A stretch of DNA of 64,000 nucleotides, from positions 1,922,001-1,986,000 of the forward strand of contig CM031558.1 in NCBI GenBank assembly GCA_018466975.1, written 5' to 3'. Position 1 is the first letter of the stretch. Each line of letters begins with the position of its first letter. Position numbers and translations under genes: made by a program. Shown piece by piece: positions 1 through 22,160 of the stretch. This DNA comes from Sparassis latifolia. Lineage: Eukaryota > Basidiomycota > Agaricomycetes > Polyporales > Sparassidaceae. The notes beneath the pieces are model-generated. The model was given only the letters and a program-made list of their open reading frames with translations, did not search any database and was not told the DNA's origin.

Positions 1-3000
1 ATCAGCCCATACTCTCTGAGAAGCTGCGGTCTTATGACACGGCAGATGCCAAGGGACGCAAGACTCTGGTTCAGAGCTTGCGCCAGAAGCTGAAGACACA
101 GTTTGTCGACACGTCAAATTATGATGACATCATTGTGGAAACTGTGAGCAGTGTTTCATGTCTGTGAGGTCCCCACTAACTCTCACCGCAGAAAATCTGA
201 GAGTGGCTCAATAACCACGCCCGCCATGCGCAGGAGAAAGCGACGAAAAAGCGTATGCATGTTTCTGGCAAGCCCAATGCCTTCAAGGTGTGGGATGCGC
301 TGGAGAGGGACAAGGTGACTGAGGCCGCGCGAGCACTCGCCGCAGATAAGGGTTGCAATGTCTCCAAGGTGTGGAGAGTCGCACGGAGTGCCGAATGGGC
401 AAAACTGTCCGAGGAGGAGCAGAAGGTGTATGAGGAAAAGGCGGAAAGTTGGCGCAATGGCACTCTGGATGATAAGACGAAAATGAAGTGCGTACCTCCT
501 GTCACGTAGCATAAGGCAAATCCTGACCTAAGACAGGCTGAGGGAGCAGCGAATGATGCAATATCTGAAGAAGTTTGCCAAGACTATGTGGGACACCATG
601 GGCATTCGCATGGCATTCATGCTAGCATATCCGAAGGAAGCGGGGAGTCTGAAGGTAGAGATGTGAGCGTAGACCGTCCGACTGTCGCCATCTGCTAACC
701 CCCGAGTGAAGGGTGGAGGTCAACCACGCCATCACCAATGGAACTCCATTCGGGGCCTATCCTGGGTGGCTGCATGCTTACCAGCCTCTAGCAAAGGTGT
801 TCTCTGAGTGGGCCAAAGGTGAATACGGTAAGAAGACCTCAGTTGCATTGTCGCTGGCACACTGACCTGAATCCTTAGGTGTGACTGAGACTATGGTGAC
901 GGTGAAGAAGACACCTGCCGATTGCATGCGGGCCATGGACAAGATTCAGTTGACGGCCAACGGTTTTCCTCTGCTCCCGTCAGTGCCCGAAGGTATGGCG
1001 GAAGCGCCTCTCAAGGTGATGAACGTACAAGTTCGAGACTTCATGAATCATCACTACGGTATGACACTCCCACTGGGTGTTGAGAGATGCTGACCAGTTT
1101 ACAGCATTGGCGAAGGGTGTTCGGAACTGCAAGTCGCCATGGACGAAGCTGAACAGCATAGACGACATCAATGAGGTTATTCCAGCGGAGATGCTACCTG
1201 AGAACTTCCAGTGGATTGATCCCTCAAAGATGACAAGTGTTCCCGTTCGTGCCCTCCTCGACCACTGGCGGGCACGCCAAGAGGAACATGGACCTGAGCA
1301 GACCATGCGATTCACCCAGTACTTCGACAAGGATGGCGAAGCTGCTCCCGCCAAGTATGATCCTCTTCCACCACTTGACGGATCAGCACAGGCATTAGAA
1401 GAAGGATCTGAACATGAGGTCCAAGAAGCACTCACACCTAAGAAGGCGGGGAAGGCGAAGAAGAAGGGTAAACCTGTGCGCAAGGTCACGGGAAAGGCGG
1501 CATCGAAGGCGACAAAGGGCAAAGCGGCCCCTGGCGGAGCCAAAGGCGGTGGGCGTAAATGCAAGACGAAAGATGCATACGACTCGGAAGATGATGCCAG
1601 AAGCAGCCAAGACTCTGATCGGAGTTCGCCAGATATACCCAGCATGGCTTCCGAAGAAGATACGGCCAGCGATGAAGATTCAGGGGATGGCGAGAGCGTG
1701 ATTGCGAATAAAGCGAAGGGCAAGGCAGTCGCCACCACCAATGGACATAAGGCTAACAATGGTGGTGCACCTCAAGCGAGTGGTAGCGGTGGTGCCAAGA
1801 CGAAGGCAAAGCGAGGTCTCCAAGACCTTCCTCTGGGCGAACTGCACAGATTTGACACAGAGGAGACCGATGAAGCATCGAGTGAACTGGAGCCCAGTAC
1901 AAAGGAGCTCAGGCTTGAGCGTCAAGGCCGAGCCCTGCGTCTCACTGGTGGGAGTACTGTGGGGAGTACTGTGCCCCACCTTGTGAAAAGGAGAGACGTG
2001 TTTCTCGCCACCCTTTCCGTCGAACCGCGATACCAGGATATGCTGAAGGAAGTCAAGATTGCGACTGTGGTGAGCTCCTTTCGTGGGGATTCATAGCCAC
2101 TATTGATCATCCGTCATATAGCCCCAGGTGTATCGTTTCGACAGGTATGATCCGATTCCCTGGAGCGAATGGTCGTATGGCCAGCGCTACCTCCCGCCGT
2201 CATTTCATGCGGTGGACAACTTTGACATCGTCGAGAACTGGTTGGGCGACAAACCATGGCTGACAAAATATCGGTTCTTACATCCACAGGGCGTACAACA
2301 ATCTGCACTCGTGATTGGTATGGCGCTGAGGGACCTCACACGATCTCAGTTCATTGAGGAGGGCGAACCGACCAACCTTCCCAACTATGTGGTGAACTCG
2401 GCGATCTCATTTGATGCAGTAGAGCAGCTGCTTCGCTGTTGCGAGATCATTACCTTGGACATGGTGGAAGGGAACGTCACCCATGCCATGGTGAAGCCAG
2501 TGAGCAAGCCTGCCATACGCGGTGCCCCACAAGGTGGCGATGGCCTTGGGGGTCAGGAGGAGCAGGAAGGTGATGCCTCTGCAAGAACTCACGATGGTGC
2601 TGCTACTGCTGCCAAAGTTCACAAGGCTCACCAGCCTGCCCCCATGGCTGACAAACCAATCATTCCAAGTGGAGGAGACGAAGGGCCGAGCCAGGAGACC
2701 AGTGGTGGGGCCTCTGACGATGGCGAAGAGGACGATGCACACTTGTCCGTACCTAGCAGTGGTGCTGAACGACCACCACCGCCTCTGTTTATACCTAAGA
2801 CGAGGAAGGCCGCAGCCACAGAAGACCGTCTGTCAGCTCAAGCCAAAGCGCTCCAGGGAAGGTCGATCACCGATGCCCTTCAGAGTAATATCCCCAGCAG
2901 GATCACTCGCAGTCAGCGTCAAGCGATGGATGAGTCGCCCGCCAAGAATACCCGCAGTCAGCATCCACTAGGAGCTGTGAAAGATTTGAAGAAGCTTCCT

Positions 3001-3357
3001 GATCCAAAGCAGAAACGTCAACCAGCACGTCCCGAGCCCGATGGCGAAGACAGCTCTGGCGAAGACAATCCGCCACCTCGGAAGCGTGGACGTGGTACTC
3101 GGGACGAGTTGGTAGTGGCCTCGCCGAGGAAGAAGAATGCGAGGGCCGAGGACTCGGATGATGGTGACAAGCCTCCCGCAAAGCGAAGACGAGCTCTGCC
3201 TCAGACCCCGGAGGTCAAGGACAAGGGAGAAACCAAGCTGAAGCCGGTCCGTCTGGGGAAAGCACGTTGCGAACCTCAATGCCAGCTCGACCGTGTTCCA
3301 AATGGGGTACATTCTGAGGGACATTCGTGGCGAGGCGTATCGCAGGAACTGAACTAG
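1..3357 (+). CDS. HMG-box-like, low-complexity Agaricomycete protein (5' partial)
   Basis: A multi-exon gene that enters from outside the window and stops at TAG 3355-3357. Visible exons are about 1-143, 200-488, 537-661, 711-831, 880-1061, 1107-2067 and 2127-3357, separated by 45-60 nt GT-AG introns. The second exon holds an HMG-box-like block (NAFKVWDALER, then KLSEEEQKVYEEKAESW, 260-470). It is followed by a globular part (LKKFAKTMWDTMGIRMAF, then GAYPGWLHAYQPLAKVFSEW) and a long Lys/Ser/Glu-rich tail with basic stretches such as PPAKRRRALP. I recognise the layout as a large, copy-number-variable Agaricomycete family of unknown function; the HMG-like block suggests nuclear DNA or chromatin contact, which is inference. 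Oddity: the natural acceptor at 191 leaves an in-frame TGA at 198-200, so either the acceptor lies a few bases further on or this copy is damaged. Confidence 0.65.
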
Positions 3358-3439
3358 TGTCTTTGAGCGTTCTGGTGTTAGCAATATATGACCGCTATGT
3401 AACAGCTTGTATATCAGTACAAAATGGATACATTCACTT

Positions 3440-4896
3440 CTGCATCACTAAGCTCTAAAGCCCATCGCTCCTCCAGTGTACTCTTGAGATGGGCGGACTG
3501 CGCTCGCCATCACCAAGGCATGTTGTTGCCAGCAATTGGCCCATCGCCAAAGGACCTGAGTGAAAGCTTCACTGCATGGGAATATTGCTCCCCCAGCAAA
3601 GGGCCCACTGCCAAGGGTCAGAGGGTTGGCCATCGCCAAGCCGTGTTTTCGCCACCAATTGGCCCTCTGCCATGAGTGCTGGTGAGTGATGGGTCCACCG
3701 GCAAAGGTCAGAGGATTGGCGATCACCAGAGCACGTCATCACCACCAATGCGCCCGGAAACTGCAGGGCTGTATGTGACAATGGGCCCATTGGTGGCGAT
3801 GACATATCCTGGTGATCGTCAACCCACTGGCCTTTGGCGGTGGGCCGATTGCTGGCGATAACATGCTCTGGCGTTGGCCAACCCACTGGCTTTTGGCGGT
3901 GGGCCGATTGCTGGCGGAAACATGTCCTGGTGATGACCTATCCCATGGGTGCTTGCAGTAAGGCCCTCACTGAGGGTGCTTTGGCGATGGGCCGACTGCT
4001 GGCGATAACATGCTCTGGCAATCGTCAACCCTCTAACCTTTGGCGGTGAGCCCATCCTTCAGGTTACACTCTGGGTGATCGGCCCACTGCTCATTTGTCA
4101 TACTCTGGTGGTGGGCCGATTGCTCAGACAAACATGCTCTGGCCATGGCCAACCCTCTGACCTTTGGCGGTGGGCTGATTGCTGGCGGAAACATGTCCTG
4201 GCGATGACCTATCCCATGGGTGCTTGCAGTAAGGCCCTCACTGAGGGTGCTTTGGCGATGGGCCGATTGCTGGCGATAACATGCTCTGGCAATCGTCAAC
4301 CCTCTAACCTTTGGCGGTGGGCCCATCCTTCAGGTTACACTCTGGGCGATCGGCCCACTGCTCATTCGTCATACTTTGGCGGTGGGCCGATTGCTCAGAC
4401 AAACATGCTCTGGCCATGGCCAACACTCTGACCTTTGGCGGTGGGCCCATCCGTCATCTCATTCATCATACTCTGGCGGTGGGCCGATTGCTCAGACAAA
4501 CATGCTCTGGCCATGGCCAACACTCTGACCTTTGGCGGTGGGCCCATCCGTCATCTTACACTCGTGGCGATGGGCCCACTGCTCATTGATCATACTTTGG
4601 CAGTGGGCCCATCGATGGCGATAACATGCTCTGGCGTCGGCCCACCCTCTGACCTGTGGCGGTGGGCCCATTGCTTAACGGTTACAACACTGTAATATGC
4701 CCTGCTAGTGGGCCGAGCACTGGGAGAAGAACACTAGTGGTGGGCCCACTGCTAGTATCCCACACATGAAAGATATGGGCCCACTGCTGGTAGAGGTCAA
4801 CATGGTGACAATGGGCCGACGTCCGCTGGCTGTCCAGTTCATGACAATGTCAGGGTAAATGGGAGTTCAGTTCAGGTAACATGACTGAAAGGTGTG
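3440..4896 (+). mobile_element. Minisatellite block ending in the foldback-element terminus (solo arm)
   Basis: Degenerate tandem repeats built on a GGGCC(C/G)A(T/C) core, for example GGCGGTGGGCCGATTGCT, alternate with ACATGCTCTGGCCATGGCC. They run from about 3440 to 4790. They end in an 85-bp single-copy stretch (4810-4896) that matches both ends of the element at 7222-14618, with the same last bases (CATGACTGAAAGGTGT). The left edge has no matching terminus, so this looks like one arm of a second copy. Short frames run through it in several phases because the unit is repetitive; I see no gene. Confidence 0.6.
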
Positions 4897-6120: not shown

Positions 6121-6559
6121 CAGACTGGGTTTTTCCTGATGAATCACCATCTCCTAACCCCCGAAAATGGCCTATGAGGGATCCTATGTTGCCCTTCTTA
6201 ACTCGAGACTACAAGTGGGAGGGTGCCTGGAAAAGGTGTAATGTGCCTTGTGCTTGATTTTTAAGTTCCCCCATGTGGCAGATTATGTTACCAGTTCAGT
6301 TCTAGTGAGTGTGTATGTTGTTCCAATGTTGGTAGTAAAGCTAGGTAACAGGCATTCACTGCCCTTAAGAATCCTCCCCAAAGCTCCGGACTCAGAGAGG
6401 AGGTTTCACAATAAATACCCTCACAGTTCACCGAAGGTATGTGATTTGTAGGTCATTCAGTGAGTGTCCTCTCGCAATTCCAGTCAACACTACTTTGGTT
6501 ACTGGTGCCCACTGCCCAGTCTGAGTCCTCACAAGTCATATCATAGTATTGATACAGCA

Positions 6560-6598
6560 AAGCTCATATTGATACAGCAAAGATCATATCATCAAGGC
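6560..6598 (+). repeat. Left fragment of a split inverted-repeat (MITE-like) element
   Basis: The sequence GATACAGCAAAGATCATATC followed by ATCAAGGC matches, in inverted orientation, the far end of the repeat at 23275-23305 (GGCCTCATGATATGATCCTT then ACTGTAAT). Its continuation is found at 22807 onward, on the other side of the 16.2-kb insertion. Confidence 0.55.
6591..6598 (+). repeat. Target site duplication, left copy (ATCAAGGC)
   Basis: An eight-base direct repeat immediately outside the left terminal inverted repeat, identical to 22807-22814. Confidence 0.75.
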
Positions 6599-6633
6599 AG
6601 GATCTGGGCAACTTCATCAAAGCCCTATCCGGA
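6599..6633 (+). repeat. Left terminal inverted repeat of the 16.2-kb transposon
   Basis: It begins AGGATCTGGGCAACTTCATC and ends CCCTATCCGGA. All four differences from the right end are T here versus C there, as expected from cytosine deamination on one arm. Two subterminal motifs CCTCAAATATGC follow at 6651 and 6674. Confidence 0.75.
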
Positions 6634-7214
6634 AAATCGTCCAAAATCGGCCTCAAATATGCAAAGTTTGGCCCCTCAAATATGCTAAGTCGGATAGGAT
6701 GATCACGTTGTCACAGTACATCATGAGGAATGTCACAGGTTTTGTCACGCTTTTGCTGGATGCAAAAGGGGTGAAAAACTGCATTATGTGGATGCTACAG
6801 GTGCCCTACATGCTCCCGAACGATCACAGTGGATAATATAACATGAAAGAAACATATTTGAAGCTGCAGCAACCACATACAAAGGTTATCTCTCATATTT
6901 GGTGCATCTTTCCTCCCGGTATCTTGATTGTAAGCTTGATAATTTTCTGGACCTTTGGCTTGCTCAGGGACTGCCATCGAGCTGTGGCGATGTCGTTGAG
7001 CATCATATTATCTGGTTTTCCACTCATCGCACCATAGCCCAGGTTGTACAGAAGCTGTCCAACTTTAGCATCTGTATGCAGATTAGACGAGTGATGGCAA
7101 CACGAAAAATAGGGCGCAGAGGTGGGCTCATTGTCCATCTCGTCATCTTCATCTTCACTTAATTCTTGACCGGTTGAATCCTTTAATTCAAGTCAGTAAG
7201 TATGCCAACAATGC

Positions 7215-7221
7215 ATGCACT
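7215..7221 (+). repeat. Target site duplication of nested element, left (ATGCACT)
   Basis: This seven-base direct repeat is identical to 14619-14625. It sits the same distance (9 bases) outside the shared terminal motif CAGTCATGT on both ends. One more base outward is C here and G there, so an ancient 8-bp duplication is also possible. Confidence 0.6.
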
Positions 7222-7309
7222 TACACCTTTCAGTCATGTTACCTGAACTGAACTCCCATTTACCCTGACATTGTTATGAACTGGACTGCCAGCGGACGTC
7301 GGCCCATCG

Positions 7310-8425
7310 GTTTGTGTAGAGAGCTGTCAGCGATGGGTCCATGGCGATGAAGGGAAGGCTGGAGTGATGGGCCCACCACCATGGGGGTAGTTCTGAGCAA
7401 TGGGCCCACTGCCATAGGAGTACTTCTGAGCAGTGAGCTCACCGCTATAGGAGTACTTCTGAGCAGTGAGCCCACCGCCATAGGTGATGTTCTGAGCAGT
7501 GGGCTCACCACCATAGGGGTACTTCTGAGCAGTGGGCCCACTGCCAAGAGTGTAAGATGAAGGATGGGCCCACTGCTAAAGGTCAGAGGGTTGGCCATCG
7601 CCAGAGCATATTACTGCCAGCAATAGGCCCATCGCCAAAGTACCCTCAGTCAGGGCCTTACTGCAAGCACCCATGGCATAGGTCATCACCAGAACATGTT
7701 TCCGCCAGCAATCAGCCCACTGCCAAAGGCCAGAGAGTTGGCCATCGCCAGGGCATGTTTCTCCCAGCAATGGGCCCACCATCAGAGTAGTCAAAGGTCA
7801 AAGGGTTGGCCATCACCAAAGCATGTTATCGCCATCAATGGGCCCACCGCTAGAGTATAATCAAGGAGCAGTGGGCCCATCGCCACAAGTGTAAGATGAA
7901 GAATGGGCCCACTGCCAAAGGTCAGAGTGTTGGCCATCATCACAGCATGTTTCTCTGAGCAATGGGCCCACCACCAAAGTATGATCAATGAGCAGTGGGC
8001 CTATCACCATGAGTGTAAGATGAAGAATGGGCTCACCACAAAAGGTCAGAGGGTTGGCCATCACCAGAGCATGTTATCGCCACCAATAGGCCCATAGCCA
8101 GAGTACAATAGCTGAGCAGTGGGCCCATCTCCAAGAGTATCAGATGAAAGATGGGCCTACTGCCACAGGCCAGAGGGTAGGCAATCATCAGGACATGTTT
8201 CTCCTAGCAATGGGCTCACTGCCAATGTACAATAAATGAGCAGTGGGCCCACTGCCATAGGTGTTGTTCTGAGCAGTGGGCCCATCATCATGATGCTATT
8301 ATTTACTGATGGGCTCACTGCCATAGGGGTATCTCTGAGCAGTGGGCTCACCGACATGGTGTTATTAGTCAGTGATTGGTTGACCATCATAATACTGGCA
8401 GTGCCTGAACTCAGCAAGACACCTA
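7310..8425 (+). repeat. GGGCCCA minisatellite, left arm
   Basis: About 33-bp degenerate units such as GTGGGCTCACCACCATAGG, GGTACTTCTGAGCA and AGCAGTGGGCCCAC. Toward 7560-8100 they are mixed with longer TCAGAGGGTTGGCCATC...AGCATGTT units like those at 3440-4790, in reverse orientation. Confidence 0.8.
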
Positions 8426-8439
8426 ATCGCTAACCTGAC

Positions 8440-10690
8440 ACTACATCTCTGGTGGAGTTTTTACAATATGGAGTCCTGCCTGAAACTTATCGTAGCTGTC
8501 GTATAGAGTGCAGTGCCACCATGTTATGAGTTTCTGATATATGGTGAACCATGGCTTTATATTCTGGTGATGGTGAGACTCAATTTGCCAAAAAGTCGCC
8601 AACCTGGCTCTCCTTCTTTGGCAAAGTTTGTTAAACTTGGAGGACTGTCTGAAACTTGTAGAAGAGGATTTATAAAGTGCAGTACTGCTATTTCAGACTT
8701 CCTGCATATATGGAGAGCCATGGCTTTACATTCTTGTGATGGCGAGAGTCAACCAGTAAAAAACTCAGCAACCTGGCTCTCCTTTGGTGAAGTTTGTCAA
8801 ACTTGGAGGTCTGTCTGAAACTTGGAGAAGAGAATTTATAAATACCATTTTATGAGTTCCTGATATATGGCGAGCCATGGTTTCACATTCTGGGGATGGT
8901 GAGACTCAACTAGTAAAAAAGTCGCCAACTTGGCTCTCCTTCTTTGGCGAAGTTTGTTAAACTTAGAGCACTGTCTGAGACTTGTAGAAGAGGATTTATA
9001 AAGTGCAGTGCCACCATTTTAGACTTCCTGGGTATATGGCGAGCCATTGCTTTACATTCTGGTGATGACGAGACTCAATTTGCCAAAAAATTGCCAACTT
9101 GGCTCTCCTTCTCTGGTGCAGTTTGTTAAACTTGGATGACTGTCTGAAACTTGTAGCAGAGGATTTATAAAGTTAAATTCCATAATTTTATGAGTTCCTA
9201 GTATATAGTGAGCCATGGCTTTACATCCTGGTAATGGTGTGACTCAACTAGTAAAAAACTCGCCAACCTAGCTCTCCTTCTTTGGCAAAGTTTGTTAAGC
9301 TTAGAGCACTGTCTGAAACTTGTAGAAGAGGATTCATAAAGTGCAGTGCCACCATTTTAGACTTCCTGGGTATATGGCGAGCCATGGCTTTACATTCTGG
9401 TGATGGCGAGACTCAATTTGCCAAAAAGTCGCCAACCTGGCTCTCCTTCTCTGGCGAAGTTTGTTAAACTTGGAGGACTGTCTGAAACTTGTAGAAGAGG
9501 ACTTATAAAGTGCAGTGTCACCATTCTCTGAGTTCCTAGTATATGGTGAGCCATGGCTTTACATTCTGGTGATGGTGAGACTCAATTTGCCAAAAAGTCG
9601 CCAACCTGGCTCTCCTTCTCTGACGAAGTTTGTTAAACTTGGAGGACTGTCTGAAACTTGTAGAAGAGGATTTATAAAGGGCAGTGCTGTCATTTTAGAC
9701 TTCCTGGGTATATGGAGAGCCATGGCTTTGCATTCTGGTGATGGCGAGACTCCACCAGTAAAAAACTCGCCAACCTGGCTCTCCTTCTCTGACGAAGTTT
9801 ATTAAACTTGGAGAACTGTCTGAAATTTGTAGAAGAGGACTTATAAAGTGCAATGCCACCATTTTATGAGTTTCTAGTATATGATGAGCCATGGCTTTAC
9901 ATTCTGGTGATGGTGTGACTCAACTAGTAAAAAACTCGCCAACCTGGCTCTCTTTCTCTAGTGCAGTTTGTTAAACTTGGAGGACTGTCTGAAACTTGTA
10001 GCAGAGAATTTATAAAGTTAAATTCCATCATTTTATGAGTTCGTAGTATATGGCGAGCCATGGCTTTACATCCTGGTAATGGCGTGACTCAACTAGTAAA
10101 AAACTCGCCAACCTAGCTTTCCTTCTTTGGTGAAGTTTGTCAAACTTGGAGGACTGTCTGATACTTGTAGTAGGGGATTTATAAAGTGAAGTGCCACCAT
10201 TCTATGAGTTCCTGGTATATGGCGAGCCATGACCTCACATTCTGGTGAAGGTGAGACTCAACCAGTAAAAAACTCAGCAATTTGGCTCTCCTTCTCTGGC
10301 ACAGTTCACAAAACTTGGAGCACTATCTGGAATTCATAGTAGTTGGTATATAAAGTAAAGCACCACCATTTCATGAGTTTCTGATAGACGTTGAGCCACG
10401 GCTTCACATCCTGATGATGGCTAGACTTAATCTGATGATTCTCCACTAACCTGGCGGTCCTTCTCTGGTAAAGTTAATTCAACTTGAAGCACTGTCTGGA
10501 ATTGATAACAGCTGTTATATAAAGTGAAGGGCCACCATGTTATGAGTTCCTGATTGATGGCCAGCCATGGTTTCACACATAAACATGCTAAACGACCAGC
10601 TGCTTCTGTAATGAAGTCTGGATGCAATGGAGTATTATCTGAAACTTATGGCCAAAGTTATATACTGTGGAGTATGAACTGTAACTTGGA
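8440..10690 (+). repeat. 169-bp tandem repeat array, left arm
   Basis: About twelve units spaced near 169 bp. Each has ACTGTCTGAAACTTGTAG, TTTATAAAGTGCAGTGCCAC, TATGGCGAGCCATGGCTTTA and CGCCAACCTGGCTCTCCTTC in that order. Divergence grows toward the core (10300-10690). Short open frames through the units are an effect of the repeat. Confidence 0.85.
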
Positions 10691-11427
10691 GTAGCAATAT
10701 CATATTGTGACTTAACAGCTATTAATTCTCAATAACAATTAAGTGTAATTCTTTGAAGAGAGCTACACTTAAGTTCATGAAGTGTGTTTTGCTTTTCATA
10801 TAACTAAATGCCAGACATTTGTTAGAAAATGACAGATGTATCTTTTTCAAGACAACATGTAGTCAACTGTAATGTTAAGTGATTGGCAAGCTTTACTTCT
10901 TAAAAAACAGCCAAGTTCACTTCTGAAAAGTTAGCAATATTTCACTCTGAGCTCTATAGACTTCTTATAAGTGTGTCAAGAATCTATCTAGCTCTGATAT
11001 AAGGTCTATGTAATCACCATCCTTTAATGTAGATAGAAAAATGTATTGAAGAAGAATCTCAAATATATAGAAGAAAACACATATAGGAGCCATTATGTTC
11101 ATGTAGATGTGTGTGCACTTGGAGACTAAAAAGAAAAGTGTGATTCCTTGACCAGTTCAGCAAGTCACGTGAAGTTCATTAAAGGTAGACAATATTGAAT
11201 TATTCACATAACACTAAGTGATTACAATCAATACTAACCACAACATCATATTTTGCATATAAAGTGTCATAGTATCATGCAGAGAAATGGTGAGTTGTAT
11301 ACTGAACTTCTCAAAGTGTTCACAGATCATTAGAATGGCTGTGTGTATCTTGCTAAACTTCAAGAAGTAATGCAAGGCTTCCAATTTAGAGCATACAACT
11401 GCTGTTGTAAGATTTAGTCACTCTTTC

Positions 11428-11465
<38 letters not shown>

Positions 11466-11820
11466 ATTATCACAGCCGGTTAGCATGCTAACTTGTGAAT
11501 GTGTTTAGGATGATTAGATGTGGCTCAAAACCAACTACGAAGTCATACAGCACTGGCATTGAACAGTAATGCAACTGCTGCTCTTAGTTTTGAAAGACTT
11601 AGATACTTCACTTTATAATAAATAGCAGATTGTCAGCATTGAATCTCAGTGCATCCACACTTTGCCAAAATGTACAAACACAGCTTGACATCAGCCAGAA
11701 GTCCATATAAAAGGACATCACAGTATATAGCTACTGCTACAACTTATAGTTAGTACTTTATATCATATAAAATTCATCAGTGTATATGAAAAAAGAAGTA
11801 TCAGATTGCCAGTTACATTT
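10691..11820. other. AT-rich unique core of the foldback-like element
   Basis: Single-copy, AT-rich sequence with no open frame of note. It contains a (TA)n run at about 11438-11463 next to GCCGGTTAGCATGCTAACTTG. I see no gene or recognisable signal in it. Confidence 0.6.
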
Positions 11821-13640
11821 TCCTTGTGGCTCACCATCTATAAGGAACTCACGAAATGCTGGCACCACTTGATATAACATTTACTTAAATTTTTAAACAG
11901 TGCTTTAAGTTAGACAACCTTTATCAGAGAACAAGTGCCAGATTGGTCATTCTTTTCCTGGTTAAGTCTAGCTATTATCAGGATATGAAGCTATAGCTCA
12001 CCATTGATCAGGAACTCAGAAAGTGATGGCACTTCACATTATGAAATGTCTACTATAAATTCCAGACAGTGCTTCAAGTTTGACTAACTTCATCAGAGAA
12101 GAAGAGCCAGGTTAGCGATATGTTTATTGACTAAGTCTAGCCATTATCAGGATATTAAGCCATAGCTCCCATCTACAAGAAACTCAAACAATGATGGTGC
12201 TTCACTCGATACCGCAGCTACTATCACTCCCAGACAGTCCTCCAAGTTTGACAAACTTTACTACAGAAGGAGAGTCAGATTGCTGAGTTTTTTACTGGTT
12301 GAGTCTCACCTTCACCAGAATGTGAGGCCATGGCTCACCATATACCAGGAACTTATAGAATGGTGGCACTTCACTTTATAAATCCCCTACTACAAGTATC
12401 AGACAGTCCTCCAAGTTTAACAAACTTCACCAAAGAAGGAGAGCCAGGTTGGCGAGTTTTTTACTAGTTGAGTTACACCATCACCAAAATGTAAATCCAT
12501 GGCTCGCCATATACTAGAAACTCCTAAAATGATGGAATTTAACTTTATAAATTCTCTGCTACAAGTTTCAGACAGTCCTCCAAGTTTAACAAACTGCACC
12601 AGAGAAGGAGAGCCAGGTTGGCGAGTTTTTTACTAGTGGAGTCTCACCATCACCAGAATGCAAAGCCATGGCTCTCCATATACCCAGGAAGTCTAAAATG
12701 GCAGCACTGTCCTTTATAAATCCTCTTCTACAAGTTTCAGACAGTCCTCCAGGTTTAACAAACTTCGCCAGAGAAGGAGAGCCAGGTTGGCGACTTTTTG
12801 GCAAATTGAGTCTCACCATCACCAGAATGTAAAGCCATGGCTCACCATATACTAGGAACTCAGAGAATGGTGGCACTGCACTTTATAAGTCCTCTTCTAC
12901 AAGTTTCAGACAGTCCTCCAAGTTTAACAAACTTCGCCAGAGAAGGAGAGCCAGGTTGGCGACTTTTTGGCAAATTGAGTCTCGCCATCACCAGAATGTA
13001 AAGCCATGGCTCGCCATATACCCAGGAAGTCTAAAATGGTGGCACTGCACTTTATAAATCCTCTTCTACAAGTTTCAGACAGTGCTCTAAGTTTAACAAA
13101 CTTCACCAAAGAAGAAGAGCCAGGTTGGCGACTTTTTTACTAGTTGAGTCACACCATTACCAGAATGTAAAGCCATGGCTCGCCATATACTAGAAACTCC
13201 TAAAATGATGGAATTTAACTTTATAAGTCCTCTTCCACAAGTTTCAGACAGTCCTCCAAGTTAAACAAACTTCACCAAAGAAGAAGAGCCAGGTTGGCGA
13301 CTTTTTTACATCCTGGTGATGGTGTGACTCAACTAGTAAAGCCATGGCTCGCCATATGCTAGGAACTCATAAAATGATGGAATTTAACTTTATAAATCCT
13401 CTGCTACAAGTTTCAAACAGTCCTCCAAGTTTAACACACTTCACCAGAGAAGGACAGCCAGGTTGGCGACTTCTTGGCAGCTTGAGTCTCGCCGTCACTA
13501 GAATGTAAAGCCATGGTTTGCCATATATCAGGAACTCAAAAAATGGTGGCACTGCACTCTATACGATAGCTACGATAAGTTTCAGGCAGGACTCCATGTT
13601 GTAAAAACTCCACCAGAGATGTAGTGTCAGGTTAGCGATT
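11821..13640 (-). repeat. 169-bp tandem repeat array, right arm (inverted)
   Basis: The same unit as 8440-10690 in reverse complement, for example GAAGGAGAGCCAGGTTGGCG and TAAAGCCATGGCTCGCCATA. The first units (11821-12240) are degenerate, as in the opposite arm near the core, so the arms mirror each other in decay as well as order. Confidence 0.85.
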
Positions 13641-13649
13641 AGGTGTCTT

Positions 13650-14520
13650 GCTGAGTTCAGGCACTGCCAGCATTATAATGGTGAATCAATCACTAACTAA
13701 TAACACCATGTCGGTGAGCCCACTGCTCAGAGGTACCCCTATGGTGGTGAGCCCATCACTAAATAATAGCATTATGGCGATGAGCCCCACTGCCCAGAAG
13801 TACCCCTATGGTGGTGGGCCCATTGCTAAATAATAGCATTATGGTGATGGGCCCACTGCTCAGAAGTACCCCTGTGGCGGTGGGCCCACTGCTCAGAATA
13901 ACACCCATCGCTCAGAACACTACCTATGGCGGTGGGCCGATAGCTGTATAGTAGCCCCGAGGTGGTCGGCCGATGGCTCAGAACTTACCCCCTGGCAGTC
14001 AGCCAATCACTCAGTACTATCACGGTGGCGGTGGGCCGATGGCTGTATAATAGCACTATGGCGGTGGGCTGATCACTCAGAAATATACCTATGGCGGTGG
14101 GCCGATTGCTCAGAACACTACCTATGGTGGTCGGCTGATGGCTGTATAATATACCTATGGCAGTGGGCCCATCGCTCAGAACACTACCTATGGCGGTCGG
14201 CCAATGGCTGTATAATATCCCCAGTGGTGGTGGGCTGATCGCTCAGAAATATACCTATGGCAGTGGGCCCATCACTCAGAACACTACCTATGGCGGTGGG
14301 CCGATGGCTGTATAATAGCCCTAGCGGCAGTCAGCCGATCGCTCAAAAATACACCTATGGCAGTGGGCCGATCGCTCAGAACTATCACTGTGGCGATGGG
14401 CCCATGTCTATATAATAGTAGCACCATGGCGGTGGGCCGATCACTCAGAAATACTCCTATGGCGGTGGGCCGATCGCTCTAGCATTCCCTTTCTCGCCAT
14501 GAGCTGATTGCTTACAACTT
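13650..14520 (-). repeat. GGGCCCA minisatellite, right arm (inverted)
   Basis: Units of about 32-34 bp alternate between GGGCCGATGGCTGTATAATA and GGGCCCATCGCTCAGAACAC, forming a higher-order dimer of about 65 bp near 14030-14330 that is not seen on the left arm. Confidence 0.8.
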
Positions 14521-14618
14521 CTTACACAAACCGATGGGCCGACGTCCGCTGGCTGTCCAGTTCATGACAATGTCAGGGTAAATGGGAGTCCAGTTCACAA
14601 ACATGACTGAATGGGCTG

Positions 14619-14625
14619 ATGCACT
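14619..14625 (+). repeat. Target site duplication of nested element, right (ATGCACT)
   Basis: Identical to 7215-7221. It lies 22 nt inside the transposase intron that begins at 14640 on the minus strand. Confidence 0.6.
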
Positions 14626-16157
14626 AAAGAGAGAACTTACAGCACCAAGTGTGAGAGGTAAGAAAATGAGTAGGGACAGGTACGATAGTCCAGTGCATGA
14701 AGTCGCAGTTTGCACGGATCCGTGATGATTACTAATTTTCTTATAGATGTCGAGCACTTGACCAATATACATGCGGGCCTTGTTTTTCATAATAACATAG
14801 CACCCGCAGTGCAACAGATTGATTTGACTTACATTCTTGCTTGCGACATTTGGAAGCTCTAAGACATGGTATATCACTTTGAATATATTATTCTCGAAGA
14901 CCAGGCTGATCACATACCATTGTTCGAGAGAATGCGCTGAACTTCTTTTGCGGTAGACTGCCAACATAATTCTCGAGTTGTCTTGGTTCTTGTGTTGGTG
15001 GCATGTAGAGCTTGGACAACGCGCACACAGTGAGAGGCTTTATGTACACTCATCTTGCCCAACAGTCCCACCTCAACATCTTTGAGGCGACGCAGCACGA
15101 ACTTGGGATCGATCACGACCACTTGTTCCGATCTTGTCATCGTTCCTGACTGATGCCATTTGCGCAGTGCGAGCATTGCAGATATCGATATTTTGTCTCC
15201 ATTGTCGAAGATTTCGCTGCAGAGGACTGGGTTGGAAATGCTGCCCGATGTTGGGGGAGCACTGGTTGCAGCAGGAAGTGCAACTGTGATGTCAGGCAAG
15301 CATACATCATCAGAGGGCCTTTTCTCTAGCTCAGAGAGGCTTTCCTCATAGTCTTGAGAGAGCACAGCATATTGAGCTGCATCATATGACGCAGCCTCTG
15401 CAATTCCCTGTGCAGTGTCAGTTGGATCACTGGACTCAGGACCCGCAGTGTCATCGGGGTCACCATCATCTTCATCTGAATCAGAATCATTGCTTGATTC
15501 ATTGTCGAACACTGCATCTTGTATCTTGGGGCCCTTCCTTCTAGCATTCTGGCTTGATGCAACAAAAGGTGCAAGTGTAATCGGGAGGCTCAGAGCTGTG
15601 ATTCGAAGCACTTGCTTGCATATTTGTGATGCCTCCTTGAATGCTAGGACCACAAGGTTATTCATGTCTTCGTTAGTGAGCTGAACTCAGGCTCGTTCAA
15701 GATCTTCGGGTGTTAGCAACGAGGCATCAATAGTCCAAAATATATCCAGACCTAGAATCACGTTCCTTCTTGGCCTTAAAATGACCCGAGAGAAGAATTT
15801 GCTGGTGGAGCATGACATGTTTGATAAGTTTCAACAGCTCTGCATAGGTGAAGTTGGGCAGGAGGGTACGAGCAAGCCCAAAGAAGTGTTCTACAAGCTC
15901 AGTGCCAAGCATCCAAGGGCAGAACGGTTGATCAGGATAATGGTGTGCATATGCGAGTGCGAGGAGGACTAGGCTATCACAGAGGTGGTTGAAGATATTG
16001 AAACTTGCCAACGAGATGAAGGATCGACTAGTCGAGTACAAATTGGGGAAATGTCGAGACATATCCTTGATGTAAGACCACCAGATATAGAGAAAGAAAT
16101 GTGCCCGGAGAGCGGCAAGGACACATTCTTGTGTTGTAAGATGCACCAGTGGTGCCT

Positions 16158-16375
16158 ACCATTGTAATACAATCCCTCACAAAGGGTCCAAATTGTTGTG
16201 TATAACATGGTGACCTTGTAATACCTTGTAATTAAGATGATGAGACCATTGTAATACAATTAACAATTGACAAAAGGCAATGTTCACACCAGGAATTGAA
16301 CTCTGAACCTTGCAAAGTTTTGACAATTTATTACAATGACTGGTGCTTTAGACCACTGTGAAATTCATGAGAAGA
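16158..16375 (-). mobile_element. tRNA-like SINE fragment inside a transposase exon
   Basis: Read on the minus strand, CAGTGGTCTAAAGCACC resembles a Pol III A box and AGTTCAATTCC (16304-16292) fits the B-box consensus GTTCRANTCC, at tRNA-like spacing. A body follows with a perfect 16-bp direct repeat ACCATTGTAATACAAT at 16158-16173 and 16245-16260. It separates the transposase segments VYLFIFG and HLTTQECVLAALRA, which normally lie close together in this protein family. The outer edges are approximate. Confidence 0.45.
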
Positions 16376-19094
16376 AATGTACCAAAAATGAAGAGATACA
16401 CGAAGATGCCAGAGAATCCATCTTTGACTGTTCGCTGATTATTGTTAGTATCTGTAGCCGCAGTCAATGCAACATAATGGAACATGCGACGAGCTGCCCC
16501 ATCATCCTGCTTGTCCACATTCTCGACATCATGTAAGACTAAGCCGGAGTCACTGGCTTCGTAGAGGTCAATCAATGAGTGATCCACAATATAACCCTCA
16601 CCGCAGCTAGCTGTATGAGTGCCATGTTGCGGTTGATTCCTTGTGGTCTTCCTTGCATGTAGTGGATCTGTTACAGACATAAGTGGTCCTGTCTGCTTGA
16701 AAACAGGTGCCTTGAGTTCCACCCCATACAACGTGTATGCATACGACAAGTGTGGCAGTTCAGATGCAACATTATCCATCATACCTTGAGCTGCAACCTC
16801 TGATGCAGCTCCATCTGCAGCACAAGAGATGACGAGGATCTTAAGTTGGGCTGCCATTGCAAGCATTTGCATGTGCTGAGTATGGATCAACTCCACATTG
16901 TCAGTACCCTCAGTTGAAATGAGTGCGACCACGAGTGGAGGAATCTGCGGTAATGGTACCTTAAGACAAGTGATGACTATACACACCTACAGTTGAGAAA
17001 GAGTCCTAAATACCTTGATAAGAATCACCCTTGTCTGCATTGCCATCGCCTTCTTGCTCTTGATGTGATTAATCACCCCCTCGATGGCTTCGGGATTGTC
17101 TACGAAGCATTCTTCCATTGAGAGAACCGATCCGAGAATATGACTGCTGAAGTCATTCGAATATGTAAGTCGCTGTCGAACCTTTGTACAATCACCAGCT
17201 ATGGCGACCAGACCCGTGTAGTGAATTGAATCCACAAGATGTTTGACACGTGCCATGTTCTCGAAGTCGAGGAATGGCTTCTGTAAACAGTCGGGTGAAC
17301 GTGATATCACATAGCTAGCCATTGTGTAAGTCAGTAAAGGCATATGCAGAGTAGAGATGACACAAACCGCAGAAGGCGAGGTGACAGTCCTCCTATCTGA
17401 GAGGTGAGAATTCCATATTGTTGAGCAGAATTCTGTCCATACGAATGCATGAGCGTCATAAAATTGAGATAGTTTTGTGGATAGCACATTCCATTCTTGA
17501 GTTTTTGGTTATCATCGAAGTCACGGTGTACACGATCAGTAAGGACAGCACAGATATCCATAAAAGTCTCATGATTCGACAGCTTGCCTTCCTTGGTGTG
17601 TTGGTATAACTGTAAAAAACAACTCAAGTGGTCGTCTCATTCTAGAACGTTCCAAAGGCCATAGAGCAAAGGATCCTTGAGCTTATTTTGAAGGTCGCGT
17701 GCTTGCATGCTTCGAAAGGTGTTGGGTGCATACTTTTCATGTGCAACATGGATCGTATGTTGTTTGTCATCTGGCAAATTTGCCTCGCTATTTGCCTGGT
17801 GAATATGCCAGTCAGAAGACATACAGAAGATTGCAAGGGTGAAGACTTGACCTTTCGTACGACCCTCTTAAAGGGCTCATCTGACGCTAACTTCTCGCAG
17901 GTCTCACAAACTTCAGACATGTTCTCTGTGGTGCCTTTGCACTGCGCGGAGCATACAAACCCTTCGTGGTAATCAACCTGCCATTGCGCCCATGCTTTCA
18001 GTGTGAAGTCAAGTTTCTTCCTCTCAGCATCTGTCCAACAGTACTCCGGCATATGCTTGTTTCCATCCACAGGGACTTCAATTTTCACCTTGACACAACT
18101 TGACTGGTTTTGTTCAGCATCAATGTTTGATACATTCATGTGTATGGTGGGGAGGTTCTTGTACGGGAAGAGTTGTCGAGCAATGCGTGCTTGGAACATG
18201 GGTGAGATACCGCCCAGTGAACAAGTATGTGTCCGGAGGATATACTCCAAGTAAATGCCACCATGCAGATGTCTACATGGAACTCATGTCAGCTCTGCTT
18301 TTGGCTGAATGATGACAGCGGCTGATGATCAATCGATGGTGGGAAAGATGTGTGCTATAGATGGTGTCTGCGCAGAGTGAGTAACCAACTGATACAATGA
18401 GTAAAATGTGAAATGTATTGACTTACAGCCTTCACAACCTTTGTCACATAGGAAACTTTTGTTGGCTTTATGCCTTCCAATTTATAATCATCTATTGCTG
18501 ATTTTAGAGCTGCAGTTTTCCGGTCTTTGGTGGATCCATTGACTGCAAAGTAGCTCACTATCGAAGGAGCTCCCAATAATGTTACCTGTACAGATCATAG
18601 CATCAGCGACTGTACATATATCATGAGAAGTGTCAGCATACCTCCCACAAATTAGATGACGTTTTCTTTGCAGCGGCAACTTGTACGTGCTTCGTGGTTA
18701 GCCCAGTGATCTGCAGACACTTACTTTTGTGCACCTTCCAGTTTGCTTCATCATATTCACGGTCCATCCGCAACTGGATCCAGCGGTTGCAATCATGACA
18801 TCGTGCACTGCTTGTCTTGAGCTCCTTGATCCATTCATCTTCTCATAGTATGGCCTCTCTGGCATTGGTGGTCTTCCTCTTTTTGCGATGCACCCCTCTA
18901 GCTTTTGTTAGACATTTCGCATGAGATTATTCACCAGTGTCGTAATCTTCGGAATCCGAGGTAATATATTGCTTACGGCTGCTGATAATGCTCAGAAGGG
19001 ACCGACACTGGTAACGAGAAACTGAAACTCACTTCTGTCCAGACAGCTTTGATGCTCGCTCATCAGCAGTGCTACTTCTGGACTCAAGCACGTT

Positions 19095-21229: not shown

Positions 21230-22160
21230 AACTTGTAGTGTGTAGTAAAATTAAGCAGGGCTGACTGGAGACTAGTGTTTATGCAGGTCAGAGGCAATAC
21301 TAGTAAAATCAAACAGGTCAGAGATGAGACTAATAACATCAAATAGGCCAGACATCAGACCAGTAAGATTAAGTCAGATAGAGGTGAGACTAGTAAAATT
21401 AAGCAGGCCTGACATGAGACTAGTATTCAGATACTGCAGAGATGAGACTAATAAGATGAAGCAAGACTAATATAAGACTTGTAAGATTAAACTGGCTAAA
21501 TATGAGCCTGATAAGATTAAGCTGGCTAAAGATGAGACTAGTAAGATCAAGCAGCTCTAATGTGAGACTAGTAACACATAGCTACTGCAGATGGGAGACT
21601 AGCAAGATTAAGCAGACCAGATATGAGACTAGTAAGCCTACTAGTGCTTAAGCAGGTAAGATGTGAGACTAGTAAAATTAAGCAGGCTTGATGCGAGATG
21701 AGTAATATTTTGACACTACAGAGGTAAGACTAGTAAGATGGAGCAAGATTAATATAAGACTTGATCAAACTGGCTAAATATGAGACAAGTAAGATTAAGC
21801 AGGCTATAAGTAAGATTAAGCAGGTCTGACATGAGACTAGTAACATTTAGCTACTACAGATGCGAGGGTAGTAACATGGACCAGATCAAATATAAAACTA
21901 CTAAGATTAAGCAGGCCACTAGTAAGATTATGCATGCCAGCTGTGAGACTAGTATATTAAGCAGGCCACTAGTGAGATTGAGCAGCATACTAGTAAGATT
22001 ATACAGGTAACTAGCAAGATCAAGAACACCAGATGTGAGACTGATCAGATTAAGCAGACTAGAGCAGGTCTAATATCAGACTAGTCAGTAAGCAGGCCTA
22101 CTATCAGACTAGTAAGATTAAGCAGGCCACTTGTAAGTATACATAGGTTAGTAAGATGAA
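21230..22160 (+). repeat. Degenerate GAGACTAGTAAGATTAAGCA minisatellite
   Basis: About thirty imperfect copies of GAGACTAGTAAGATTAAGCA plus GGCC(A/T), spaced 25-60 bp, lie in the right subterminal part of the 16.2-kb transposon. No matching array is visible at the left end. From 22160 to 22650 the DNA is AT-rich without a gene. Confidence 0.75.

Follow-up and report, generated by a model that had tools for sequence, protein, structure and literature searches.

The FB element of Drosophila has a target duplication of 9 bp. Foldback elements at large have mostly been assigned to the Mutator superfamily, with Galileo of the P superfamily as an exception, and for Tetris, which makes duplications of 8–10 bp and of which the copies described hold no conserved open reading frame, an autonomous partner was not found (PMC4079207). 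For an inversion in Drosophila buzzatii, Galileo copies that have exchanged their target duplications have been described (PMC2775673). In Agaricomycetes, TET-positive families of Kyakuja elements are characterised by 7-bp duplications and 5'-CA..TG-3' termini (Kojima 2025, PMC12730594), two Kyakuja families of Laccaria being described as lacking terminal inverted repeats (TIRs) (PMC12730594). The mobile elements KDZ1-3 of Cryptococcus neoformans, which encode CxC1 proteins and measure about 9–11 kb, carry TIRs of 139–241 bp and generate duplications of 8 bp in the case of KDZ1 and of 4–8 bp in the case of KDZ2 and KDZ3 (PMC12810828).

The locus considered here lies in a 64-kb stretch of contig C7, called the window in the following, to which all coordinates refer unless another contig is named; the genome searched comprises 41.4 Mb on 22 contigs, labelled C plus number. 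The product of a gene nearby shares 99% identity, over 98% of the query, with a protein of the cauliflower mushroom Sparassis crispa, which is therefore the probable host. The window harbours a Foldback-type element with a perfect 7-bp duplication at both sides (Table 1). Judged from sequence comparisons, this element is very probably a non-autonomous transposon of Foldback architecture, which for its cut-and-paste movement would depend on the KDZ transposase supplied in trans by Kyakuja-type elements of about 20 kb that occur in this genome and have the same termini.

Table 1. Coordinates of the Foldback-type element, its parts and its surroundings in the window
Feature	Position	Strand	Remarks
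Neighbouring KDZ/TET element, L-end part	1..4896	-	C7 1912625 (R end) to 1926896 (L end)
Host gene, last exon (DSTGQE...HQI)	6893..7180	-	Junction and homologue alignments
Target site duplication, left copy	7215..7221	no strand	ATGCACT
Complete Foldback-type element, L end to R end	7222..14618	+	7,397 bp; ends match those of other copies and KDZ elements
Left terminal inverted repeat, ~85 bp	7222..7306	+	L tip (T/C)ACACCTTTCAGTCATG; 97.6% identity with L end of C8 KDZ element
Left outer arm, 33-bp-type minisatellites	7307..8367	+	Tandem Repeats Finder and KDZ comparison; 33-bp array at 7368..7546, then longer-period arrays up to 8367
Left inner arm, 169-bp tandem units	8502..10577	+	12.4 copies (Tandem Repeats Finder); no match in C8 or C7 KDZ elements
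AT-rich core between 169-bp arrays	10578..11826	+	No match in C8 or C7 KDZ elements
Right inner arm, 169-bp tandem units	11827..13638	-	10.7 copies (Tandem Repeats Finder); inverted relative to left inner arm
Right outer arm, 33- to 100-bp minisatellites	13689..14479	-	Tandem Repeats Finder; CpG-richer than left outer arm in the window copy
Right terminal inverted repeat, ~85 bp	14534..14618	-	R tip CAGCCCATTCAGTCATG read inward; 93.9% over 82 columns to L end of C8 KDZ element, inverted
Target site duplication, right copy	14619..14625	no strand	ATGCACT
Host gene, exons upstream of insertion	14641..18199	-	Gene start probably further upstream

An earlier, sequence-only reading of this DNA had described a Foldback-like build with inverted minisatellite arms, of a 33-bp type and then of 169 bp, that enclose an AT-rich core of 1.1 kb, and had placed the ends of the element directly at the ATGCACT repeats. 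The build is borne out by the arrays that Tandem Repeats Finder delimits and by the inverted match between the arms, of which 1,138 nt are complementary at 91%; the best match of the element to its own inverse reaches 1,820 bits, a score to which none of 20 two-base-block shuffles comes closer than 30.7 bits. Both ends proved exact, as the same ends recur in other copies and in KDZ elements, and the core is indeed AT-rich but measures about 1.25 kb between the 169-bp arrays. No transposase gene was found within the 7.4-kb element, and a search of positions 6500-15500 against Rfam returned no family at gathering scores. Elsewhere in the window, degenerate tandem repeats of about 30 bp (TAGTAAAATTAAGCAGGCC-type) extend from 21243 to 22128.

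The insertion splits a gene. When the flanks are joined with one repeat, a 56-nt intron of the form GTAAGT...AG results, in agreement with the earlier proposal that the element sits inside an intron, and alignments of homologues across the intron junction point in the same direction: among 71 homologues of the host gene, 57 match the C-terminal part and 37 run through in one continuous alignment that extends at least 40 residues past the junction on either side. Most of the homologues named belong to mushroom-forming fungi, and the weakest ones include those of Rhizophagus and Melampsora. The gene itself had been taken for that of a transposase, an identification that is unproven, as no Pfam transposase domain was found in the tested pieces and an Ulp1 protease domain (PF02902) is present in several homologues. 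Over 657 residues, the predicted host protein gave no Pfam match at E≤1, and the gene belongs to an uncharacterised fungal family, several members of which have Ulp1. At the DNA level, an insertion-free copy of the host gene was not found in the same genome, the sole match being the window itself. Since the genome otherwise holds only distant protein paralogues (on C3 and C6, with 29–31% identity), the case for an empty site is made by the homologues in other fungi.

In its outermost 1.16 and 0.92 kb, the foldback element matches the ends of KDZ/TET elements of about 20 kb. Comparison with two of these, namely a 19.9-kb element on C8 and the neighbour on C7, from which about 5.7 kb of the C8 element is absent, yielded 115 and 122 local matches (E≤1e-3), all of them within positions 2-1158 and 6477-7397 of the foldback element and, among the matches listed, with 71–100% identity. 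For the middle 5.3 kb there was no match in the C8 or the C7 element, and the inner arms and the core are therefore foreign to both. CA..TG termini and 7-bp duplications are likewise common to the foldback family and the KDZ elements. The C7 neighbour, the only element between such ends that was scanned with Pfam, contains KDZ (PF18758, 1.8e-31), CxC2 (PF18803, 5.5e-26) and Tet_JBP (PF12851, 3.6e-20) domains, and the solved chains closest to the TET piece of the partner are CcTet (3.5e-25) and a second TET/JBP protein (5.5e-25). Placement in the P superfamily, based on the 7-bp duplication, was dropped once the KDZ, CxC2 and TET domains turned up. We assign the partner to the Kyakuja type by published features, i.e., the 7-bp duplication, the CA..TG termini and the presence of KDZ together with TET/JBP, rather than by a transposase tree.

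These partner elements are numerous. The 26 best genome matches of a 260-residue KDZ piece show 87–100% identity over 187–260 residues, 16 of them being stop-free within that piece, which in the 14 copies checked lies 4.3–6.5 kb inward of an R end. With the L-end probe of the C7 element, at least 38 near-full ends of 86–100% identity were detected, some of which stem from foldback copies. The part of the C7 element that reaches into the window ends 2.3 kb from the foldback element and shows two plus-strand open frames (1077-2096 and 2128-3357) that have no Pfam match at E≤0.01.

The foldback element is itself a member of a family. A probe from the core (10690-11410) gave at least 28 near-full matches (30 listed) with 88–100% identity, the window copy included, and 10-kb stretches around 20 of the core matches were taken for the analysis of ends. 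Both ends were present in 15 of the 20 stretches, so that together with the window copy 16 full copies of 5.3–9.3 kb are available, which are located on several contigs and all have the parts in identical order. In a search for the tip patterns, one L and one R tip were found in 16 of the 20 stretches, R only in three and L only in one, and two tips of one kind in none; L019 was not counted as a pair because both of its tips are on one strand, the L tip coming from a nested insertion. The L tip (CACACC in the family, TACACC in the window copy) and the R tip (CAGCCC) are unlike each other, yet almost constant between copies, as seen for the L tips in 15 copies and the KDZ elements. Arrays of 169-bp units also occur at C10 2940361-2941152 and C11 479833-480195, two sites without a core among the core matches listed. 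In the region C10:4330448-4364946 (L016, L019, L101) an apparent nesting is seen, with a foldback copy within the R arm of a KDZ element and the L end of that same KDZ element enclosed by the 169-bp arm of a second foldback copy.

Target duplications were compared at 19 foldback end pairs (the 16 full copies plus L013, L014 and L027), where 12 pairs of 7-mers are identical, three agree at 6/7 and four do not match. Since L020 and L021 share their 45-nt flanks on both sides, they probably represent one event that was later duplicated, which leaves 11 independent identical pairs with 11 different 7-mers; the left 45-nt flanks of L029 and L092 are alike, too. At 19 L/R end pairs of KDZ elements, in correct orientation and 19.3–34.7 kb apart, we counted nine identical 7-mers, one at 6/7 and nine that do not match, and the 7-mers of the C7 neighbour are unlike (AAAAATC vs GGTGTCA). 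The pairs that lack a matching duplication, in both kinds of element and at the C7 neighbour, count against our preferred explanation; recombination, a wrong pairing of ends or the assembly are possible causes. Two further observations concern the flanks. The 7-mer ACGCTTG is common to ends on C19, C2 and C7, the longer flanks on C19 and C2 being different, and two KDZ copies of opposite orientation on C10 (495586-515388 and 538596-560016; L034, L035, L060, L061) have their 7-mers GATGGCA and GGGTGAC swapped, as could be expected after an inversion of the intervening 23 kb by ectopic recombination or from an assembly error between inverted 20-kb repeats.

One could argue that there is no mobile unit at all and that a KDZ end pair with a one-off expansion of the 169-bp repeat was spread by segmental duplication or recombination, as the flanks common to L020/L021 and to L029/L092 and the four of 19 pairs without a matching duplication would suggest. 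From our point of view this is very unlikely, given that 11 different exact 7-bp duplications, with L020/L021 taken as one, are found at independent sites and that a host gene is split. An artefact of the assembly has to be considered as well, because assemblies are prone to fail at long inverted tandem arrays and the sequence is known from the assembly alone; its probability is next to negligible, however, as the parts follow in the same order in all 16 full copies, which are spread over several contigs, and as the two sides of the insertion form one gene in homologues.

With regard to descent, the tandem repeats inside the arms could also mark a relative of Drosophila FB (MuDR/NOF) or of Galileo (P superfamily), with a transposase of MuDR or P type as its mover, and the 7-bp duplication would fit Galileo (PMC3573991). 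Both outer arms, however, correspond to those of KDZ elements, and the one element of this kind that was scanned with Pfam encodes KDZ, CxC2 and TET/JBP domains; we consider such a descent exceedingly improbable. The element is best read as a passenger of Kyakuja with a convergent Foldback architecture and not as a Drosophila FB element.

For such a Kyakuja passenger, we propose that the KDZ transposase of the partner would act on the shared termini and thereby produce the 7-bp target duplications. The outer arms are the partner's own subterminal minisatellite ends, and the inner arms with their 169-bp units as well as the core probably joined the element at a later time. The inverted arms would then recombine or undergo gene conversion with each other, which would flip the core and render the arms alike. 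The core is indeed found in both orientations relative to the tips (+ in eight and - in eight of the 16 full copies). The + and - groups part on a core tree (FastTree, 21 cores, midpoint-rooted, without support values), and one inversion could therefore suffice. At element positions 91-330, 10 of 15 copies score higher with the KDZ right end than with the left one (72–77% identity to the right end; 74% in the window copy, where the right end likewise scores higher), and the other five (L024, L028-L031) have 90–95% identity to the KDZ left end. This likeness of left arms to the KDZ right end suggests an exchange of arms between the ends of elements or with copies of KDZ, in which the tips at the very ends kept their differences. 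The two kinds of tip have probably been kept because the transposase needs one of each.

Exchange between arms was also assessed for 273 of the 169-bp units; L021, whose flanks are as those of L020, was left out here and in the comparisons of tips and arm likeness. The nearest neighbour of a unit belongs to the other arm of its own copy in 25 cases vs 9.2 expected from shuffled labels, to the same arm in 10 vs 8.8, and to another copy in 238 vs 255. Since 238 of the 273 units are thus nearest to another copy and since the mean unit identity (about 0.77–0.78) is the same within as between copies, homogenisation within copies is weak at most.

The element further bears what may be a trace of methylation. 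CpG observed/expected is 0.15 in the core, and C>T and G>A make up 205 of the 408 differences from the majority base among 21 core copies. With the same rule of column selection for both classes, T occupies 46 of the 160 cells that belong to CpG-type sites (8 columns) vs 87 of the 2,274 that belong to the remaining C sites (114 columns). In the left outer arms of full copies, CpG observed/expected is 0.14–0.36 vs 0.54 in the left arm of the C8 KDZ element, and in the right arms 0.20–0.78 vs 0.72, such that depletion is not seen in every right arm. The CpG depletion of core and left arms fits a long cytosine methylation of the element. One could speculate further that the CpG-bearing subterminal arrays common to foldback and partner serve as a cis platform for the partner's TET/JBP enzyme, in that methylation of the arrays would gate the binding of the transposase, and the dioxygenase encoded alongside it would make the arrays accessible. 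Lacking a transposase gene but equipped with two large inverted arrays, the passenger would then compete for the enzyme or, if transcribed, provide double-stranded RNA against Kyakuja ends, for which the Mu killer locus of maize is a precedent. We regard this platform as rather unlikely.

Overall, the Foldback form is met here in another superfamily, KDZ, and in a fungus with a probable partner that is multicopy in the same genome. It thus becomes possible to test in one organism how Foldback arms have arisen repeatedly and what part the unlike L and R tips play. As the partner carries a TET/JBP gene, the family could moreover reveal how a methylcytosine oxidase carried on a transposon serves the elements with the same ends. 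Among open-licence PMC papers, covered by their titles and the starts of their abstracts, no earlier description of a Foldback-type KDZ element was found, and to that extent the remark of the sequence-only reading that a basidiomycete equivalent had not been described is not contradicted. Its comparison with Drosophila FB holds for the shape, that is, for the long inverted arms of tandem repeats. It does not hold for kinship, as the duplication measures 7 bp instead of 9 bp and as KDZ (Kyakuja-type) elements of this genome have the same ends.

With Tetris and the Foldbacks assigned to Mutator, the element has in common an arm that consists of an outer end, an intermediate domain of tandem repeats and an inner part; it differs from Tetris, with its 8–10 bp, in the 7-bp duplication and the KDZ ends (PMC4079207). 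Galileo combines Foldback-like arms, tandem repeats in one subfamily and a 7-bp duplication, and chimeric copies with non-matching 7-mers are described for it (PMC3573991). The C10 pair of KDZ elements with swapped 7-mers also resembles the Galileo inversion case (PMC2775673). Unlike Galileo, however, the present element has a KDZ partner in place of a P-type transposase, and its host is a fungus. Membership of the KDZ superfamily, long TIRs and a basidiomycete host are shared with KDZ1-3 of C. neoformans, whereas CxC1, the duplication lengths and the size of about 9–11 kb are peculiar to the latter, for which no Foldback form was found in passages of that paper (PMC12810828). From Kyakuja, the foldback element is set apart by its inverted minisatellite arms, by the lack of a detectable transposase gene and by a core that has no counterpart in the C8 or C7 element, and the TIRs of about 85 bp in the foldback and KDZ elements contrast with the two Laccaria families, for which none are described (PMC12730594). 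It is nevertheless Kyakuja with which the 7-bp duplication, the CA..TG termini and, in the partner, a KDZ transposase accompanied by a TET/JBP gene are shared (PMC12730594).
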